A program made the position numbers and the translations under genes. From Sphingomonas sp. NBWT7 (lineage in GTDB: Bacteria > Pseudomonadota > Alphaproteobacteria > Sphingomonadales > Sphingomonadaceae), in contig NZ_CP043639.1 of NCBI RefSeq assembly GCF_014217605.1, positions 248,001 through 312,000 on the forward strand: a stretch of 64,000 bases of DNA, in the 5' to 3' direction. Every line of letters starts with the position of its first letter. Within the stretch, counting starts at the first letter, position 1. This document shows, piece by piece, positions 56,432 through 64,000 of the stretch. The notes under the pieces are model-generated. The model was not told the DNA's origin. It saw nothing but the letters and a program-made list of their open reading frames with translations, and made no database searches.

Positions 56432-57469
56432 TCACAATAGGATCATCGCGCCGCCCAGCGACAGCGCCAGCGCGACCAGTGACGCGGTGACGATTACCAA
56501 AATCGGCTTGATCCCGGTTTCCAGTAGCGAACTCATCGGCGCACGGATCCCCGTCGCCGCGACGGCACAGGCGAGACATGCCGTCGCAACATCCTGCGCG
56601 CCGCGACTGGCCACCGCCGGAATGACGCCGAGCGAGTTGATCCCGGCAAAGACGAAGAAGCCGACGACGAACCACGGCAGTGTGATTCCTGTCTTCTTGC
56701 CATCCTCGGGTCGGAAAAATGCGGCAACAAGCGCGAGCACCGGCGCGAGCAGCGCGACGCGCGTCAGCTTGACGATCGCGGCAATCTGCCCTGCGCCATC
56801 CGAATAGCTGTAGCCCGCGCCCAGCGCCTGCGCGACGTCGTGGATCGACGCGCCGAGCATGAAGCCCGCCTGCCGGTCGCTGAGCCCAAGCTGATGCGCC
56901 AGGGTAGGGTAGAGAAACATCGCGCTCGCGCTCGCCGCCGAGATCACGACCAGCACCAGCGCGAGCTGCGCTTGGTTGGCGCGCTTCTCGCCCAGCGTCG
57001 TCGCCAGCGCCATCGCCGCGGACGCGCCGCAGATCGCTACCGCGCCGCCCGCCAGCGTGCCGAACGCGCTGCCCAGCCCCAGGGCGCGCGCGATAAGCAC
57101 GCCGCTGCCCAGCGTCACCAGCAGGATCACCATCACCGCCAGCAGCGTCATCGGCCCGAGCCCGACGATCTGCCCCATCGTGATCCGCGCGCCGACCAGC
57201 ACGATGCCCCAGCGCAGCAGCGTCTTGGACGCGAAGCCGAGCCCCGGCCCCATGCGCGGATCGGCGCCGAGGAAGTTGAGCGCCAGCCCGATCAGCAGCG
57301 CCATCAGCGTCAGCGGCGCGCCATAGTGATCGGCGACGAACGCCGCCGCCATCGTCGCCAGCACCGCGACCATCAGCCCCGGTACCAGATCGCGCCAGCT
57401 CGCCTTGGGCGACGGCTCGAGATCGTTGTACAGATCCGCGGCGAGGGGGAGGGTGGGGTATCGAGTCAT
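56432..57469 (-). CDS. YeiH-family putative sulfate/sulfite exporter
   Basis: A 345-residue inner-membrane protein of the YeiH / putative sulfate exporter (PSE) family with about ten hydrophobic helices. Conserved stretches include LLIGLALNFLG, KTLLRWGIVLVGARITMGQI, GGAVAICGASAAMA and GASIHDVAQALGAGYSYS. The start at 57469 (MTRYPTLPLAADLYNDLEP) follows GGGAG. It lies downstream of the sulfoquinovosidase on the same strand, so it may export sulfite released by the pathway; that link is inference from position. Confidence 0.85.
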   Translation of the reverse strand: MTRYPTLPLAADLYNDLEPSPKASWRDLVPGLMVAVLATMAAAFVADHYGAPLTLMALLIGLALNFLGADPRMGPGLGFASKTLLRWGIVLVGARITMGQIVGLGPMTLLAVMVILLVTLGSGVLIARALGLGSAFGTLAGGAVAICGASAAMALATTLGEKRANQAQLALVLVVISAASASAMFLYPTLAHQLGLSDRQAGFMLGASIHDVAQALGAGYSYSDGAGQIAAIVKLTRVALLAPVLALVAAFFRPEDGKKTGITLPWFVVGFFVFAGINSLGVIPAVASRGAQDVATACLACAVAATGIRAPMSSLLETGIKPILVIVTASLVALALSLGGAMILL

Positions 57470-57510
57470 ATCAATCTCCCGTAATTTCCGGCCGCTCGAC
57501 CAACCAACTC

Positions 57511-57640
57511 CCGTTCGCCCTGAGGAGGGACTGAGCGAAGCGCAGCGGAGCCGAAGACCCGTCTCGAAGGGTATGGGTTGCGCAACAGCACTTCGAGACG
57601 GCACTTCGCTTTCGGCTCAGCACCTCCTCAGTACGAACGG
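57511..57640. repeat. Intergenic inverted repeat
   Basis: An imperfect palindrome with 18-bp arms (CCGTTCGCCCTGAGGAGG and CCTCCTCAGTACGAACGG) and inner complementary segments (CGTCTCGAAG/CTTCGAGACG). It fills the gap between the exporter and sulfoquinovosidase genes and looks like the short intergenic repeats common in sphingomonad genomes. Confidence 0.7.
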
Positions 57641-57652
57641 AGAAGGGGCCCC

Positions 57653-59650
57653 TCACCGCGTCGCGATCGACTCGAACAGCGCCGCATGCTTGCTGTCGGT
57701 CCGCCAAAACACCGGCGGCTGCCCGATCGGCGCCGCGACCTCGACGCTTTGCCCGCCGGCAAAGGTCTCGCCCGACCACAGATGCCGCCATTCCGCGCCC
57801 GTGGGCAGGTACGCCGACCAGCGCGTTGCCCCCGCGTCGAGTACCGGCGCGACGATCAGGTCGCGGCCGTAGGCGAATTGCGTCTCGACGTCCCAGCACG
57901 CCGCATCGTCCTCGTAATTTAGGAACAGTGCGCGCTGCAGCGGCAGCCCGGTCGCCGCCGCCTCAGCGCACAGATGCGCGACATAGGGCGCGAGCGCCGC
58001 ATGGATTCTGGTCATGGCGACGAAATGCGCGAGTACGTCGGCGTCGCCGTCAAGCTGCAGGTTTTTGTCGGGCCGGTTGCCCTCATGGCTGCGCATCACG
58101 GGCGAGAAGGCCGACAGCTCGCTCCACCGCATCAGCAGTTCGGGCGTGCGGACGTTGTCGTACAGGCTGGTGTAGCCGCCCAGATCGCTGTGGTGATACG
58201 CATTGCCGACCAGCCCGGACGAAAGCGCACCGCGGATCACCGTGCCGATCCCGTCGTGGCGCGAGAAATCGACGCATTGGTCCCCCGCCCACAGCAGCGG
58301 ACAATGTGCGCCGACGCCGGTAAAGCCGGCGCGCATGAAGAACACCGCGTCGCCCGTCTTGCCGCGACTGGCGACCGCGCGCGCGTTCACCTCCGCCCAG
58401 ATCGTCGGCCAGGCATTGTGCGCGAGCATCCCGTCGCTGCCGTCGTGCAGCCGCACGTCGGTCGGCAGATACTCGCCGAAATCAGCCATCCAGCCCGACA
58501 GGCCGATGTCGAGCATCTCCTGCCCGATCACCCGCTCGGCGAACCATTCGGCCGCGGCTGGATTGGTGAAATCGACCACACCGCAGTCGAACTCGCCGAA
58601 ATCGACCAGATACGGCTCGTCCGCATCCAGCTTCAGCGCCAGATAGCCGGCATCGCGCGCCTCGCCATATTGCGTCCCGTCGACCGCGAGATACGGATTG
58701 ACGTAGCCGAGGAAACGGATGCCGCGATCGTTGAGTTCGGCGATCTTCTGCCTGAGATGTGGATAGCGCGCGTCGTTCGCCTTCCAGTCCCAGAACAGCC
58801 GCTTGCCGAAGCTGGTGACGCGCAGGCCGACCCAGTCTTCGCACCACAGGCCGGTGACGATTGCGCCCGCCGCGAGCATTGCCTCCATCCGCTCGAAGCT
58901 GCGCGTGCCATCCTTCAGCCCCAGGATCGCGCCGGAATAGGCCCATTCGGGGAGCAGCGGCTGGCGGCCGAAGCGCGTCGACAATTGCTCGACGATCGCC
59001 GCGAAGCGGTTGGCAGCGAACAGCTCGATCCGCGCGGGCACTTCCCACACCGCGATCCCGGGCGAGGCCGCATCGCGGAAATCGAAGCAGCTGTACGCCG
59101 TCGTGTCGACATGCAGCGCGTAACGGCGTGAGGACAGATAGGTCGGCTGCGGATAATTGGTGTTCCAATAATCGCCGCCCGAGCGGTGGTCGCGATCGCA
59201 CTGAAACGTCATCAGCGTCGATTTGTCGCGCCCGACGCCGGGCTCCGACGTCCACATCGGGAAGCGCCGCCCCGCCATGTCGACGTAGGACAATTGCTCG
59301 CCGCCACCCCAGAAGCGCTCGCCCGCCTCGCCGACGCACGTCAGCCAGAAGCGATTGAGCGCCGCGTCGTGCGCGTCGAGGTGCAGCGCCCCGTCGCGCA
59401 GCGTTAGCGTCAGCAGCGTCGCGCCACCTTCGTTCGACAGCAGAATCGTATTACCGTCGATCGTCGCCACGCGCAGCGCGATCCGCTCCGCAAGCCGATC
59501 CTCGAGGAAGTAATTGCCGCGGTACATGTCGACCAGCGGCGTTCCCGTGCCGACGAACAGCGCGGGCGCGTCGGGGCGATGGCGGATGACCAGCGCAGCG
59601 CCGGCGTAGATGTCAAAGCCGCCGTCGACCGCGTCGAGCCGCAGCGTCAT
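57653..59650 (-). CDS. Sulfoquinovosidase, glycoside hydrolase family 31
   Basis: A 665-residue GH31 enzyme that closely matches YihQ-type sulfoquinovosidases, which release sulfoquinovose from its glycerol glycoside, a plant and algal sulfolipid product. The nucleophile is Asp390 (GWMADFGEYLP) and the acid/base Asp457 (WAGDQ), 67 residues apart as in YihQ (405/472). The sulfonate-binding set reads Lys246, Glu271, Arg284, Trp287 and Tyr493, the KERWY pattern of one sulfoquinovosidase branch. No signal peptide is evident, so it acts in the cytoplasm. Its ATG overlaps the FMN reductase stop, and the context of reductase, monooxygenase and aldo/keto reductase supports the role. Confidence 0.93.
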   Translation of the reverse strand: MTLRLDAVDGGFDIYAGAALVIRHRPDAPALFVGTGTPLVDMYRGNYFLEDRLAERIALRVATIDGNTILLSNEGGATLLTLTLRDGALHLDAHDAALNRFWLTCVGEAGERFWGGGEQLSYVDMAGRRFPMWTSEPGVGRDKSTLMTFQCDRDHRSGGDYWNTNYPQPTYLSSRRYALHVDTTAYSCFDFRDAASPGIAVWEVPARIELFAANRFAAIVEQLSTRFGRQPLLPEWAYSGAILGLKDGTRSFERMEAMLAAGAIVTGLWCEDWVGLRVTSFGKRLFWDWKANDARYPHLRQKIAELNDRGIRFLGYVNPYLAVDGTQYGEARDAGYLALKLDADEPYLVDFGEFDCGVVDFTNPAAAEWFAERVIGQEMLDIGLSGWMADFGEYLPTDVRLHDGSDGMLAHNAWPTIWAEVNARAVASRGKTGDAVFFMRAGFTGVGAHCPLLWAGDQCVDFSRHDGIGTVIRGALSSGLVGNAYHHSDLGGYTSLYDNVRTPELLMRWSELSAFSPVMRSHEGNRPDKNLQLDGDADVLAHFVAMTRIHAALAPYVAHLCAEAAATGLPLQRALFLNYEDDAACWDVETQFAYGRDLIVAPVLDAGATRWSAYLPTGAEWRHLWSGETFAGGQSVEVAAPIGQPPVFWRTDSKHAALFESIATR

Positions 59651-60249
59651 GCCGCGATCCCGCCGGCAACCCGGGCCGAATAGTCGCGCAGCGCTGCCGT
59701 GGCGACCTGTCGGCCGACCAGCCGCAGCTGCTCGGTCACCGCCGGGTCGCTGCATCCGCCCTCCGCGTCGAGCTTCGCTTGGGCGCTGTTGACCGTTGCC
59801 GCGAACGGCGTCGGCCAGCCACGTAGCGCGTGCGCGATCGAGCGCAGCGCCGCCACGGTCGATCCGGTCGCCTGCCAGCCGTACGCGGTGGCGATCAGGC
59901 CGACGGGCACGTCGGCGAGATAGGGGCGGGAATCACGCGCGGTTTCCTCGAGCAGGTCGATCGCGTTCTTGACGAGCCCTGATACGCTGCCGTGATAGCC
60001 GGGCGAGGCGATGATGACGCCCGACGCGGCGCGCACCGCGGCGACCAGCGCGGCCTCGCCTGCCGTGCGATCGGTCAGGCCCGGCGTGTAGAGCGGCAGC
60101 TGGACGAGCGCGGCGCCGCCGAACAGCTGCGTCTCGGCGCCAGCCTCCGCCGCCGCCGCGAGCGCGATCTCCAGCGCCCGCTCGGTCGACGATCCCGCGA
60201 CGGTCGTCCCCCCGATCCCGACGATCAGCGGCTTGTGTTGGGTCATCAT
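59647..60249 (-). CDS. NAD(P)H-dependent FMN reductase
   Basis: A 200-residue flavodoxin-fold reductase of the SsuE/MsuE type. The phosphate-binding start (IVGIGGTTVAGSSTERAL) and the flavin loop SPGYHGSVSGLVKNAIDLL are visible. It would supply FMNH2 to the neighbouring two-component monooxygenase. It overlaps the sulfoquinovosidase by 4 bases; ATG at 60249 or 60246. Confidence 0.92.
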   Translation of the reverse strand: MMTQHKPLIVGIGGTTVAGSSTERALEIALAAAAEAGAETQLFGGAALVQLPLYTPGLTDRTAGEAALVAAVRAASGVIIASPGYHGSVSGLVKNAIDLLEETARDSRPYLADVPVGLIATAYGWQATGSTVAALRSIAHALRGWPTPFAATVNSAQAKLDAEGGCSDPAVTEQLRLVGRQVATAALRDYSARVAGGIAA

Positions 60250-60270
60250 CCTCTCCCCCTTCAGCCCTGA

Positions 60271-60378
60271 CTGTTCCCCGGCAAAGTGCGGGATCCAGTA
60301 GGGAAGGCTGCGGCAACGAAGCGCTTCGGTCGTTCAGCGACGTTCCGCGACTGGACCCCGGCCTTCGCCGGGGAACAG
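60271..60378. repeat. Intergenic inverted repeat within the operon
   Basis: A palindromic element with outer arms CTGTTCCCCGGCAAA and TTCGCCGGGGAACAG (near-complementary), inner arms GGATCCAGT/ACTGGACCC and a terminal CCCCGGC-CTT-CGCCGGGG hairpin. It separates the monooxygenase and FMN reductase genes and could stabilise or trim the mRNA. Confidence 0.7.
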
Positions 60379-60388
60379 TTTCACGCGA

Positions 60389-61465
60389 TCACAGCACCAG
60401 CGGCCCGTGGCTGAGCTTCGGCAGCACGTGCCGCGCGAACAGATCCGCCTCGGCGGCGTGCGGATAGCCAGACAGGATGAACGCCTCGATCCCCATGTCC
60501 TGGTACATCCGCAGCTTGGCGAGCACCTGATCGGGATCGCCGACGATCGCCGCGCCGCAGCCCGACCGTGCCCGGCCGACGCCGGTCCACAGATGCTCCT
60601 CGGCATAGCCGTCGTCCTTCGATCCCTCACGCAGCGCCGCCTGCGCCGCGACGCCGGTCGACGTCGTGTCGAGCGACTTGTTGCGGATCGCCTCGCCTTC
60701 CTTGGCGTCGAGCTTCGACAGCAGCCGATCGGCGGCGGCACGCGCCTCTGTCTCGGTGTCGCGCACGATCACGTGCGCGCGATAGCCGAACTTCAGCGTG
60801 CGACCGTGCTTCGCGGCGCGCGCGGTCATGTCGTCGATGATCGCCTGCACCGCCTCGCGCTTGTCCGGCCACATGAGATAGACGTCCGCCCCCTGCGCCG
60901 CGACCTCGCGCGCGTCGGGCGATAGCCCGCCGAAATACAGCGGCGGCGCCTTGCCCGACACCGTCGTCACCGCCGGCGGATCGAGCTTCAATTGCCAGAA
61001 CTCGCCCTGGTGATCGAGCGCTTCGCCGTTGAGCATCGTCTTCAGGATCTGCATCGCCTCGAGCGTGCGGGCGTAGCGCGGTGCGCTTGCCAGCGTCTCG
61101 CCCGGCAGGTCGGACGAGATGATATTCACCGTCAGCCGCCCACCCAGAATGCGGTCGATCGTCGCGATCTGGCGTGCCAGTTGCGGCGGCCAGCTCTCGC
61201 CGATCCGCACCGCCATCAGCAGGCGGATACGCTCGACCATCGTCGCGATCGCCGCAGCGAAAGCGGTGGTGTCGATCCCCAATGCATAGCCCGACGGCAG
61301 CAGGATGTTGTCGAACCCGCCGCTCTCGGCCTGCAGCACGATGTCGCGGCAATGCTCCCAGCTCGATTTCAGTTTGGCATCAGGAACGCCGAGAAACTCG
61401 TAATCATCGTCGCACAGCGCAGAGAACCAGCTGACTTCACACGATTTCGCTTGCGTCTCGTTCAC
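60389..61465 (-). CDS. FMNH2-dependent sulfonate monooxygenase, probable sulfoquinovose monooxygenase
   Basis: A 358-residue luciferase-like (LLM) monooxygenase of the SsuD group. Motifs include GRLTVNIISSD, PLYFGGLSPDAREVAA, and a C-terminal LSGYPHAAEADLFARHVLPKL. Such enzymes use FMNH2 and O2 to cleave a carbon-sulfur bond and release sulfite. Next to a sulfoquinovosidase it is most likely the SmoC-type enzyme that converts sulfoquinovose to 6-oxo-glucose; alkanesulfonate use is the alternative. GTG 61465 overlaps the aldo/keto reductase stop (GTGA); the frame upstream is rejected. Confidence 0.85.
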   Translation of the reverse strand: MNETQAKSCEVSWFSALCDDDYEFLGVPDAKLKSSWEHCRDIVLQAESGGFDNILLPSGYALGIDTTAFAAAIATMVERIRLLMAVRIGESWPPQLARQIATIDRILGGRLTVNIISSDLPGETLASAPRYARTLEAMQILKTMLNGEALDHQGEFWQLKLDPPAVTTVSGKAPPLYFGGLSPDAREVAAQGADVYLMWPDKREAVQAIIDDMTARAAKHGRTLKFGYRAHVIVRDTETEARAAADRLLSKLDAKEGEAIRNKSLDTTSTGVAAQAALREGSKDDGYAEEHLWTGVGRARSGCGAAIVGDPDQVLAKLRMYQDMGIEAFILSGYPHAAEADLFARHVLPKLSHGPLVL

Positions 61466-62370
61466 GGCAGCTGTTCCCCCATGCTCGCCTGCAGCACCGC
61501 ATACCACTCCTGGCGCGTCCACTGTGGCTTGTAGGCGTCGGGGACCGTGGCGATCCGCGACGCATTCTGTGTTCCGACGATCGGGATCGGTCGCGCGGGA
61601 TGCGCCATGATCCAGCTGTACGCCGCCGCCGCGCGGTCGACGCCGGTCTCGGCCGCCTTGGCATCGAGCAGCGCGGCGACGTCGCGGGCGCGCGCGTCCT
61701 GCGGATCGGCGAGCCGCCCACCGCCGAGCGGCGACCACGCGAGCACCGCCATGCCGCGCTGCATCGCCTGGTCGAACAGGCCGTCGAACAACGGCGTCGT
61801 CACCAGCGCCGAGAATTCCGGCTGATGGCTGACGACCGGCACGGGAAGGAACTCGGCGAGCGCGGCGGTCTGCGTCGGCGTATGGTTCGACACGCCGATC
61901 GCGGTGATCTTGCCTGCGGTGCGCGCGTCGTCGAGCGCGCGCGCGGCCTCCTGTGAGTGCGTCAGCAGGTCGGGGCGGTGGATCTGGTAGAGGTCGATCT
62001 TCTCGCAGCCGAGCCGCGCCAGCGATGCGTCGATCGCGCTGGCGAGATAGTCCGCGCTCGAATCGTACGGCACGCCCATACTGATGCCGCCCTTCGAGGC
62101 GAGCACCATCCGATCACGCAGGTCGGGAGCTTCGGCGAACACCCGCCCAAGCAGCGCCTCGGCCGCGCCGAATTCCTCGTCGTTGTCAGGGCCATAAATA
62201 TCGGCGGTGTCGAACAGCGTAATGCCGGCGTCCAGCGCCGCATCGATCAGCGCGCGTGCCTTGGCGACATCGGTGCCGCGGAAGCGCCACATGCCCCAGG
62301 CAATCGTGCTGACGGTTAGACCAGTGTCGCCGAGAGCGACGGAGCGAGCGGGGGCGGGCAAATAAGACAC
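61462..62370 (-). CDS. Aldo/keto reductase, probable 6-oxo-glucose reductase
   Basis: A 302-residue aldo/keto reductase with the catalytic tetrad Asp54, Tyr59, Lys93 and His131 (DTADIY, ASKGG, IHRPD) and the cofactor region PIVGTQNASRI. Overall it resembles E. coli YdhF, including its ending TRQEWY. In the sulfo-SMO pathway an enzyme of this class (SmoB) reduces 6-oxo-glucose to glucose. GTG 62370 lies inside a palindrome; this odd start should be read with care. It is the first gene of the leftward operon. Confidence 0.87.
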   Translation of the reverse strand: MSYLPAPARSVALGDTGLTVSTIAWGMWRFRGTDVAKARALIDAALDAGITLFDTADIYGPDNDEEFGAAEALLGRVFAEAPDLRDRMVLASKGGISMGVPYDSSADYLASAIDASLARLGCEKIDLYQIHRPDLLTHSQEAARALDDARTAGKITAIGVSNHTPTQTAALAEFLPVPVVSHQPEFSALVTTPLFDGLFDQAMQRGMAVLAWSPLGGGRLADPQDARARDVAALLDAKAAETGVDRAAAAYSWIMAHPARPIPIVGTQNASRIATVPDAYKPQWTRQEWYAVLQASMGEQLP

Positions 62371-62381
62371 CGTTGTCTTAT
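62362..62381. promoter_or_regulatory. Candidate operator over the aldo/keto reductase start
   Basis: A perfect 8-bp inverted repeat ATAAGACA-CCGT-TGTCTTAT. It covers the GTG start codon and lies in the control region shared with the divergent TonB receptor. Such palindromes are typical of dimeric repressors; no regulator gene is in the window. Confidence 0.6.
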
Positions 62382-62554
62382 ACGAAGAAATGCGCGATGG
62401 GGGAAGCAGTCAATTGATCGCGCCGCTGGCCTGCGCGCCGTTTGGCCCGCTGAACCCGGCAACGGCGCGGCGGGCGGGCGGCGCGCCGGGGCAGCGGTGT
62501 TCAGTGGTTCGTGCTTTCCAAGATTGGTTCAGGGTTCGGGGTTAGGAGAGGGTA

Positions 62555-64000
62555 ATGACGGGTTTCACTTCAAAGGCGGTCTTGTTGACCGCCACGTGCG
62601 GTCTCGCACTGTTTGCGCAGGTCGCCAGCGCGCAGGCCATGTCGCCCGAGGGGCAGACGGTCGAGCCGGTGACCGAGAAGCAGCAGGATGCGCCGGCCCC
62701 CGGCGTCGCGGCTGAAGCACCCGCGACCGAGGATGTCGGCAGCGGCGACATCGTCGTCACCGCGCAGAAGCGCAGCGAGCGTCTGCAGGACGTGCCGCTC
62801 GCCGTCTCCGTGATCGGCGGCGACGCGCTCACCGCCACCGGCGCGCCGGGGCTCGACGGCGCGGTCGCGCTCGTTCCCTCGCTCAACTTTCAGAAGTCGG
62901 GCACCACGCTCAACCAATCGCTGTTCCTGCGCGGCGTCGGCACGACGACCTTCTCGATCGCGGGCGAGCCGTCGGTATCGTCGGTCGTCGACGGCGTCGT
63001 CTTCGCGCGTACCGGCGAGGCGTTCAGCGACCTCGTCGATATCGAGCGGATGGAAGTGCTGCGCGGCCCGCAGGGCACGCTGTTCGGCCGCAACGCGTCG
63101 GCCGGCGTCGTCAACATCGTCACCAAGCAGCCGACGCGCGATTTCGGCGGCTATGTCGAGGGCAGCTACTTCACCGGCGGTGACGAGGCGCGCATCCGCG
63201 GCGCGCTCAACGTGCCGCTCGGCGAGAACCTGCTCTCGCGCTTCACCGGCTTCTACAGCCGCTATGACGGCAACATCCGCAACGACGCCTTCGGTGGCCG
63301 CCGCGTCAACGGCTACGAGCATTTCGGCGGCCGCGTGCAGCTCAAGTGGACGCCGAGTGACACGACCACGATTGCGTTGATCGGCGATTATCACAAGAAC
63401 GACGACGATTGCTGCGCCGAGGTGATCGGCACCGGCCCGCTGACCGGCGCGGGTGTCGGCTTCACCAGCCCCATCTCGGGCGTGCTGCCGACGCCGCGCG
63501 GCGACGAGACCCGCCGCATCAACCAGAACCTCATCACCCGCACCAAGGAGGAGGGCTACGGCGCGTCGCTGCAGATCGATACCGAGCTCGGCACGCAGAC
63601 CGTCACCAGTATCACCGCTTATCGCGAATACAAGAACACCGAGATCCGGGACGGCGATTTCCTCGCCGCGCCTTATGCCGGCTTCACCCAGCTGCATGAT
63701 CTCGGGCCGCAGACGGGCGACACGTTCAGCCAGGAGCTGCGCCTGACGTCGCCGTCGCGCCAGTTCGTCTCCTACGTCCTCGGCCTCTATTACTCGCGCG
63801 CCGAATCGGAGCGGACCTTCTCGCGCTCGGTCTTGAGCTGCAACGCGATCGTCGCGACGCCCAACGCGCTGGTGCCGTGCGGCAGCGCCAATGCGACGCC
63901 GACGACCAACCCGTTCGGCACTGCCACCTTCGGTTCGGTGTTCACCAACATGGCGGCGTTCGGCCAGTTCACGGTGAACTTCACCGATCGCTTCCGCTTC
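62555..64000 (+). CDS. TonB-dependent receptor, probable sulfoquinovoside uptake, 3' partial
   Basis: The gene starts at ATG 62555 after GGAGAGG and is open to the end of the window (482 codons). A signal peptide (MTGFTSKAVLLTATCGLALFAQVASA), a Pro/Glu/Ala linker, a TonB-box-like DIVVTAQKR and a plug (LQDVPLAVSVIGGDALT, LFLRGVGTTTFSIAGEPSVSSVVDGV, ERMEVLRGPQGTLFGRNASAGVVNIVTKQP) are followed by the start of the beta-barrel. It is divergent from the sulfoquinovose-type operon, so it may import sulfoquinovosyl glycerol across the outer membrane; the substrate is inferred only from context. Confidence 0.9.
   Translation, partial: MTGFTSKAVLLTATCGLALFAQVASAQAMSPEGQTVEPVTEKQQDAPAPGVAAEAPATEDVGSGDIVVTAQKRSERLQDVPLAVSVIGGDALTATGAPGLDGAVALVPSLNFQKSGTTLNQSLFLRGVGTTTFSIAGEPSVSSVVDGVVFARTGEAFSDLVDIERMEVLRGPQGTLFGRNASAGVVNIVTKQPTRDFGGYVEGSYFTGGDEARIRGALNVPLGENLLSRFTGFYSRYDGNIRNDAFGGRRVNGYEHFGGRVQLKWTPSDTTTIALIGDYHKNDDDCCAEVIGTGPLTGAGVGFTSPISGVLPTPRGDETRRINQNLITRTKEEGYGASLQIDTELGTQTVTSITAYREYKNTEIRDGDFLAAPYAGFTQLHDLGPQTGDTFSQELRLTSPSRQFVSYVLGLYYSRAESERTFSRSVLSCNAIVATPNALVPCGSANATPTTNPFGTATFGSVFTNMAAFGQFTVNFTDRFRF

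Follow-up and report, generated by a model that had tools for sequence, protein, structure and literature searches.

A probable import-to-sulfate locus for sulfoquinovose glycosides in Sphingomonas sp. NBWT7

The locus and its enzymes

The window analysed here is a stretch of 64,000 nucleotides (nt) from the genome of Sphingomonas sp. NBWT7 (genome positions 248001-312000, on a contig of the 3.39 Mb genome). The end of the window and the genes beyond it very probably form an import-to-sulfate locus for glycosides of sulfoquinovose (SQ), running the sulfo-SMO (sulfo-ASMO) pathway. The functions named for this locus are, throughout, inferred from sequence. Within the window it holds the following features, given with window positions.

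56432..57469, minus strand: PF03601 (YeiH-like) membrane protein, a putative sulfite/sulfate exporter (PF03601 200 bits, over cut-off)
57653..59650, minus strand: predicted GH31 sulfoquinovosidase (SQase), 665 amino acids (969 bits to a solved YihQ-type enzyme)
59647..60249, minus strand: PF03358 flavin mononucleotide (FMN) reductase, presumed supplier of FMNH2 to the monooxygenase (PF03358 85.6 bits, over cut-off)
60389..61465, minus strand: predicted FMNH2-dependent SQ monooxygenase of the SmoC/SquD type, luciferase-like, 358 amino acids, GTG start (assigned by identity to solved SQ monooxygenases)
61462..62370, minus strand: SmoB/YdhF-like aldo/keto reductase, presumed 6-dehydroglucose reductase, GTG start (best solved sequence match, an A. 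tumefaciens enzyme)
62366..62377, no strand: putative LacI-type operator core GACACCGTTGTC, in the perfect palindrome ATAAGACA-N4-TGTCTTAT (62362-62381), covering the reductase's GTG start
62555..64000 and on to genome position 313029, plus strand: TonB-dependent receptor (TBDR), 824 amino acids (PF00593 and PF07715 over cut-off)

The minus-strand genes lie in the transcription order reductase, monooxygenase, FMN reductase, GH31 and PF03601 protein, with the TBDR gene divergent. A first-pass annotation of this DNA had reported the four enzymes on one strand and the divergent receptor, all of which are present, and had joined the enzyme genes by stop-start overlaps. Such overlaps link the reductase to the monooxygenase (GTGA) and the FMN reductase to GH31 (ATGA), but 139 nt separate the monooxygenase from the FMN reductase. 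The annotation had also begun its stretch at 56432; the genes it named are there, but that position is the end of the PF03601 gene, which had no place in its reasoning. Longer open reading frames for the monooxygenase (449 amino acids) and GH31 (700 amino acids, from 59755) were rejected, as conserved sequence begins near 61465 and 59650, respectively.

Profile matches were judged by Pfam and NCBIfam cut-offs, and matches to solved proteins by bit score or E-value. Six GH31 entries among the solved proteins, yihQ by name in four cases, match the GH31 protein at 665-969 bits, and the score then drops to 152 bits for the next one. The protein also lies over the cut-off of its best NCBIfam model, NF007746 (889.5 against 553), which we take to be the YihQ model. 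Residues K246, E271, R284, W287 and Y493 are identical in the alignment to a solved SQase, and D390 and D457 presumably make up the catalytic pair; we assume that the five hold the sulfonate and that the two aspartates carry out catalysis. By sequence, the protein falls in the SQase subfamily of GH31. An ordinary alpha-glucosidase or alpha-xylosidase was considered and rejected (at most 152 bits against 969). By eye, the protein has no obvious signal peptide.

Against the solved SQ monooxygenases 7oh2 and 7olf, the window monooxygenase reaches 390 and 384 bits, compared with 235 for MsuD and 198 for SsuD. Its identity is 51-52% to the two solved SQ enzymes, 38% to MsuD and 25-35% to SsuD entries, and an identity as SsuD or MsuD was rejected because the SQ monooxygenases match far better in sequence. 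The first-pass annotation had placed these genes in the sulfo-SMO pathway unless the monooxygenase should group with alkanesulfonate or methanesulfonate enzymes; in sequence it stands closer to the SQ enzymes, and the placement holds as far as sequence can show. A tree of 86 monooxygenases, in which the SsuD branch is very long, added nothing to the pairwise scores. For the aldo/keto reductase, the best solved sequence match is an A. tumefaciens enzyme (37% identity, E 1.9e-47). Chance can be excluded for GH31, monooxygenase and reductase because their E-values to solved proteins are 1.5e-290, 1.9e-115 and 1.9e-47.

The FMN reductase is the least secure of the four. Its matches to solved proteins are weak (best 30.5 bits, 3.1e-6), and the SsuE and MsuE models of NCBIfam match it weakly, far under cut-off. 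It had been proposed at first pass as the flavin reductase of the known pathway. The PF03358 match, over cut-off, agrees with this, but the protein shows no similarity to a flavin reductase encoded next to a Rhizobium SQ-type monooxygenase that is itself more distant; this flavin reductase served as a stand-in for SmoA, SmoA itself not being compared. A flavin reductase of the SmoA kind is thus not what was found. This does not exclude the pathway, because, according to a review, there are also sulfo-SMO pathways with an SsuE homologue or with none. The enzyme steps are supported by homology to solved or characterised enzymes, weakest for the FMN reductase, and membership of the pathway is well supported by sequence.

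Between GH31 and the PF03601 gene lies a gap of 183 nt with inverted repeats. These are nested (57511-57640), with 26-nt arms that are 85% and 18-nt arms that are 89% complementary; they look like an intergenic repeat of the dispersed kind and might terminate transcription or stabilise mRNA.

Recurrence, operator and import

Open reading frames were listed on to genome position 337000. The first-pass annotation had suggested that an inner-membrane importer might lie outside the window and had advised reading on past 64000. This suggestion fits what is found there: a gene for a major facilitator superfamily (MFS) protein with a LacI gene, followed by genes for sulfite and glycerol (genome positions).

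315580-316881, minus strand: MFS gene, 2.5 kb past the TBDR gene
316878-317936, minus strand: LacI gene, its end overlapping the MFS start
~317973-318389, minus strand: small SorB-like cytochrome gene, overlapping the end of the SorA-like gene
318389-319627, minus strand: SorA-like molybdopterin sulfite dehydrogenase gene (product matches subunit A of a solved sulfite:cytochrome c oxidoreductase at 364 bits)
319685-320464, minus strand: glpR
320464-321993, following glpR: glpD
322095-323603, opposite direction: glpK (by eye and by match to a Novosphingobium plasmid glycerol kinase)

Do these genes belong together? They were counted by tblastn, requiring one piece that covered half of the query, in 80 related loci. 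These are the best 80 of at least 583 confirmed loci from named genome records, chosen by peptide words of the window monooxygenase. They total 1,448,411 bases, 26 of the 80 are shorter than 20 kb (some are cut contigs), and they are related rather than independent. The reductase recurs in 76, the MFS protein in 60, the TBDR in 56, the LacI protein in 50 and the YeiH-like protein in 39. Rarer are GH31 (21), the FMN reductase, SorA and the cytochrome (18 each), GlpD and GlpK (13 each) and GlpR (8). Sampling of the genus gave the monooxygenase itself (E up to 1e-100) in 69 of 151 genomes, and sampling of the family gave it in 78 of 298, both figures counting this genome; in the family sample, none of the five other genomes listed under the same genus had it. 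The trait is common in this group, yet patchy.

Many loci without GH31 carry a Gfo/Idh/MocA-type gene, and the product of one scores 373 bits against 8qc2, the structure of SqgA (GH188) with nicotinamide adenine dinucleotide (NAD) and SQ (PMC10755693). With this protein as the query, the SQase is GH188 in 43 loci, GH31 in 21, both in 0 and neither in 16, three of which hold a GH31 gene at their edge; among the 54 loci of at least 20 kb, the figures are 29, 17, 0 and 8. In the tree of 86 monooxygenases, a quick one whose labelled rows number 71 (26 GH31, 45 GH188, three of these labels coming from partial genes at locus edges), the SQase changes between GH31 and GH188 at least six times. The two SQase families interchange inside one otherwise similar gene set, and their complementary distribution has already been published (PMC10755693).

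The start of the reductase lies inside the perfect palindrome ATAAGACA-CCGT-TGTCTTAT (62362-62381), whose core, GACANCGNTGTC, we take to resemble LacI-family operators. In the 80 loci there are 86 sites of GACANCGNTGTC, 70 of them within 80 bases of a reductase (26), GH188 (22), MFS (17) or TBDR (5) start; the GH188 gene is divergent from the reductase in many loci. By comparison, 23 rearranged control palindromes gave 0-5 sites each in these loci, none near a reductase or MFS start. With the last half-site relaxed, 51 of the 73 loci with a reductase start have a site no more than 70 bases away. Seven of the 16 sites away from starts lie ~200 bases inside TBDR genes and read as codons of the plug sequence D-I-V-V. 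This genome has six sites, one of them on the start codon of the reductase and another a short way into the MFS gene (a reversed control pattern has one site), and when AA is required in front of the core these two places are the only exact matches. The counts overstate the evidence since the loci are related; the controls share the same relatedness.

What would the receptor and the permease carry? The window TBDR stands well apart from its best own-genome paralogue (216 bits, against 1846 to itself). Receptors at SQ loci are 26-99% identical to it, and GH188-type loci hold the same kind at 36-68%. In a receptor tree, one branch with a Shimodaira-Hasegawa-like approximate likelihood-ratio support of 100 (SH-aLRT) parts 53 SQ-locus receptors from 20 own-genome rows, two genes having been entered twice. 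The tree takes in 53 of the 55 clustered receptors (two of at most 650 amino acids were dropped, and other receptor clusters at SQ loci left out), and these were preselected by linkage at no less than 35% identity, so the unity of the set is partly built in. The informative part, as judged from sequence, is that the own-genome paralogues fall outside the SQ-locus set. The best NCBIfam match of the TBDR is a siderophore subfamily, under cut-off. For the MFS protein, the closest matches are transporters of the D-galactonate type (TIGR00893, 173.7 bits, under cut-off; 113.8 bits to a D-galactonate transporter structure). An unnamed protein of ~250 amino acids occurs in seven SQ loci (L041, L043, L053, L060, L069, L082, L085) and, by our gene calls, adjoins the MFS gene in six of them.

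No binding protein of family PF13416 was found in this genome, although 13 of 14 control genomes have the family, PF01547 not having been searched; four PF00528 permease matches are present. The binding protein of Agrobacterium for sulfoquinovosyl glycerol presumably belongs to a PF13416 kind of family, and it is from the missing PF13416 protein that the absence of an SQ importer of the ATP-binding cassette (ABC) type is read. Elsewhere, a plasmid of Rhizobium sp. WSM4643 (L164, 3201-10053) has a LacI gene and ABC genes of the UgpC type next to a monooxygenase 74% identical to that of the window, with no annotated SQase or aldo/keto reductase adjoining this monooxygenase, and another Rhizobium has a 54%-identical monooxygenase beside genes of a tripartite ATP-independent periplasmic (TRAP) transporter and a sulfate-exporter-family gene. 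Import thus seems to differ from cluster to cluster (ABC, TRAP, here TBDR with MFS) while the chemistry stays constant.

SorA homologues take several different positions relative to the SQ genes. By eye, the SorA-like protein has a twin-arginine start. The homologues follow the FMN reductase in nine of their 18 loci, glpR in five, the YeiH-like gene in two and the monooxygenase in one, and in one locus the homologue lies at the edge of the stretch analysed. GlpK homologues occur in 8 of the 21 GH31 loci, in none of the 43 GH188 loci and in five more loci without a counted SQase. Shared ancestry may lie behind this link to GH31-type loci, and in 7 of the 13 the identity is only 33-35%, indicating a more distant kinase. 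On plasmid pLA3 of Novosphingobium (N.) pentaromativorans, monooxygenase, glpD and glpK stand in a row, preceded by GH31, LacI and reductase genes, with the TBDR divergent. This row fits sulfoquinovosyl glycerol (SQGro) as the substrate because its hydrolysis gives glycerol. Next to the pLA3 cluster lie genes for a sulfotransferase and for another TonB receptor, the second there (L165, 1-2167).

Sphingopyxis and some others (L021, L026, L049, L055, L067, L072, L077) show a variant with a second MFS gene past the monooxygenase, together with a gene without an NCBIfam match and GlpK-, GlcD- and GlpD-like genes, some with an iron alcohol dehydrogenase. Proteins were checked in L067 and L026; the rest follows from gene order. 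The GACANCGNTGTC palindrome occurs in the extra stretch of five of the seven, which is perhaps a second branch of the same regulon.

The proposed pathway and its rivals

In the proposed scheme, SQGro or SQ would cross the outer membrane through the TBDR and the inner membrane through the MFS protein. In the cytoplasm, the GH31 enzyme would then free SQ and glycerol. FMNH2 from the FMN reductase would go to the monooxygenase, which with O2 would cut the C-S bond of SQ to yield sulfite and 6-dehydroglucose, and the aldo/keto reductase would turn the latter into glucose. Sulfite may exit via the YeiH-like protein and be oxidised in the periplasm by the SorAB-like dehydrogenase, and glycerol may enter GlpK and GlpD. 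The LacI protein would repress the enzyme operon and the MFS gene via the palindromes at their starts until released by an SQ-derived inducer.

Several observations weigh against this scheme. By structure, the monooxygenase ties with MsuD, as does the aldo/keto reductase with a Klebsiella homologue. The MFS protein lies under the cut-off of its best NCBIfam model, and the ligand of the TBDR and the substrate and direction of the MFS protein are predictions. SorA reaches 498.6 where 600 is needed and SorB 76 where 93 is needed, making the pair SorAB-like rather than filed members, and the YeiH-like protein scores 128 bits against a TIGR00698 cut-off of 232.6, although it passes the wider PF03601. 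By tblastn, 24 of the 80 loci show no TBDR and 20 no MFS gene (some are cut contigs), SorA and the FMN reductase reach 18 each and GlpK and GlpD 13 each, in a set that is related and was picked by peptide words of the window monooxygenase itself. Four of the six GACANCGNTGTC sites of the genome lie elsewhere than at the reductase and MFS starts, and no operator of this type was found at the start of the window TBDR. Lastly, two ferritin-like genes intervene between the TBDR and MFS genes. They were recognised by eye (genome 313210-315254, minus strand), their proteins gave no match in an NCBIfam search, and each occurs in one of the 80 related loci, the nearest relative (L011).

What else could the locus be doing? 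On one rival reading, only its core serves SQ catabolism, and the TBDR, the MFS and LacI pair, the SorAB-like and glp genes are neighbours with other duties (e.g., siderophore, sugar acid, sulfite and general glycerol use). The profile annotation of the TBDR is generic, its siderophore subfamily being under cut-off; glp genes adjoin only some loci, SorA is found in 18 of 80, and the ferritin-like genes intervene. Nevertheless, the same genes are linked repeatedly in differing orders, the receptors group by locus type, the reductase and MFS starts have a palindrome in common, and monooxygenase, glpD and glpK stand in a row on the Novosphingobium plasmid, so that we consider such a mixed locus unlikely. 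Sulfur scavenging is a very unlikely role. It would make these genes an alkanesulfonate-type (Ssu/Msu-like) system for sulfate starvation with GH31 as a passenger, and it can point to the structural tie with MsuD, to SsuD as the best NCBIfam model of the monooxygenase (260 bits) and, weakly, to SsuE as that of the PF03358 FMN reductase. The SsuD score, however, is far under the cut-off of 518, and the SQ monooxygenases match much better in sequence; a GH31 or GH188 SQase is linked in 64 of the 80 loci, and a LacI-family regulator together with a sulfite-oxidising dehydrogenase points to sugar use with sulfite as waste.

That another sulfonated sugar is the true substrate, such as sulfofucose in its glycosides, is hardly credible when the GH31 protein keeps five residues (K, E, R, W and Y) that the solved SQase has and whose sulfonate role we presume, and GH188-type genes replace GH31 in otherwise similar loci. 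What speaks for it is that only about half of the monooxygenase residues are common to the solved SQ enzymes and that a Paracoccus sulfofucose pathway exists (PMC12421959).

We therefore retain an SQ-glycoside locus running sulfo-SMO as the reading of these genes. A wider proposal stands at about even chances: that in sphingomonads and neighbouring Caulobacterales a dedicated TBDR and an MFS protein replace the ABC importer of sulfo-SMO, with enzymes and permease under one LacI repressor at palindromes that lie on start codons or close by. Many would add glycerol use and periplasmic sulfite oxidation, so that a single regulated module would carry the whole sulfolipid head group from the outer membrane to sulfate and central metabolism. 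SQ, the sulfur-bearing sugar of plant sulfolipids, is among the most abundant organosulfur compounds, according to a review, and the locus offers a candidate SQ receptor, a candidate SQ permease, a putative SQ-responsive LacI operator and a possible sulfite outlet. The literature searched, for the most part titles and the openings of abstracts, combined sulfoquinovose with TonB, LacI or operator, sulfite dehydrogenase and sphingomonad. It gave no description of SQ uptake by bacteria with TonB-driven outer membranes, no TBDR and MFS import route with a linked regulon, and no TBDR import or LacI control of a sphingomonad SQ cluster.

Comparison with known systems

The enzyme core is already known; what this analysis contributes is the set of genes beyond the window, the module that recurs, the operator and the exchange of SQase families. 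The locus resembles the A. tumefaciens sulfo-SMO cluster (SmoA-I) in its SQase, SQ monooxygenase (51% to 7olf), aldo/keto reductase (37%) and flavin reductase. It differs in import, with an SQGro ABC importer there (PMC9594981) and a TBDR and MFS protein here, in a genome with no PF13416 binding protein. The FMN reductase is of another family than that in the Rhizobium cluster of Agrobacterium-like general make-up. Many sulfo-SMO clusters are described as holding an SsuE homologue (PMC9594981). Two reviews of the pathway treat transporters only generally, for other pathways or as the ABC importer of Agrobacterium, and neither came up among the papers that mention sulfoquinovose together with TonB.

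The SorAB sulfite dehydrogenase is a second point of reference: the 364-bit match of the SorA-like protein and the overlapping SorB-like cytochrome gene resemble it, and both proteins differ in falling under the NCBIfam cut-offs. GH188 (SqgA) sulfo-SMO clusters form similar modules in 43 of the 80 loci, with an NAD-dependent GH188 SQase where the window has GH31. The N. pentaromativorans plasmid cluster, with 70% identity in the monooxygenase and 58% in GH31, has TBDR, GH31, LacI, reductase and monooxygenase in a row.

According to two reviews (one PMC9594981), the pathway has been described in both A. tumefaciens and N. aromaticivorans, with 6-dehydroglucose reduced by SquF. The first-pass annotation had seen in the window a sphingomonad version of sulfolipid-sugar catabolism; the pathway is supported, but a sphingomonad version is not new, that of N. 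aromaticivorans having been published. A review states that the N. aromaticivorans cluster has no SsuE, whereas the window has an FMN reductase. In a mangrove sample, a 2026 study reports Novosphingobium as dominant among SQ assimilators and predicts sulfo-SMO in it. As far as the reviews describe it, the sulfo-ASMO system of N. aromaticivorans (SquD, SquF) comes closest, in a bacterium that is likewise a sphingomonad and has enzymes of the same classes.

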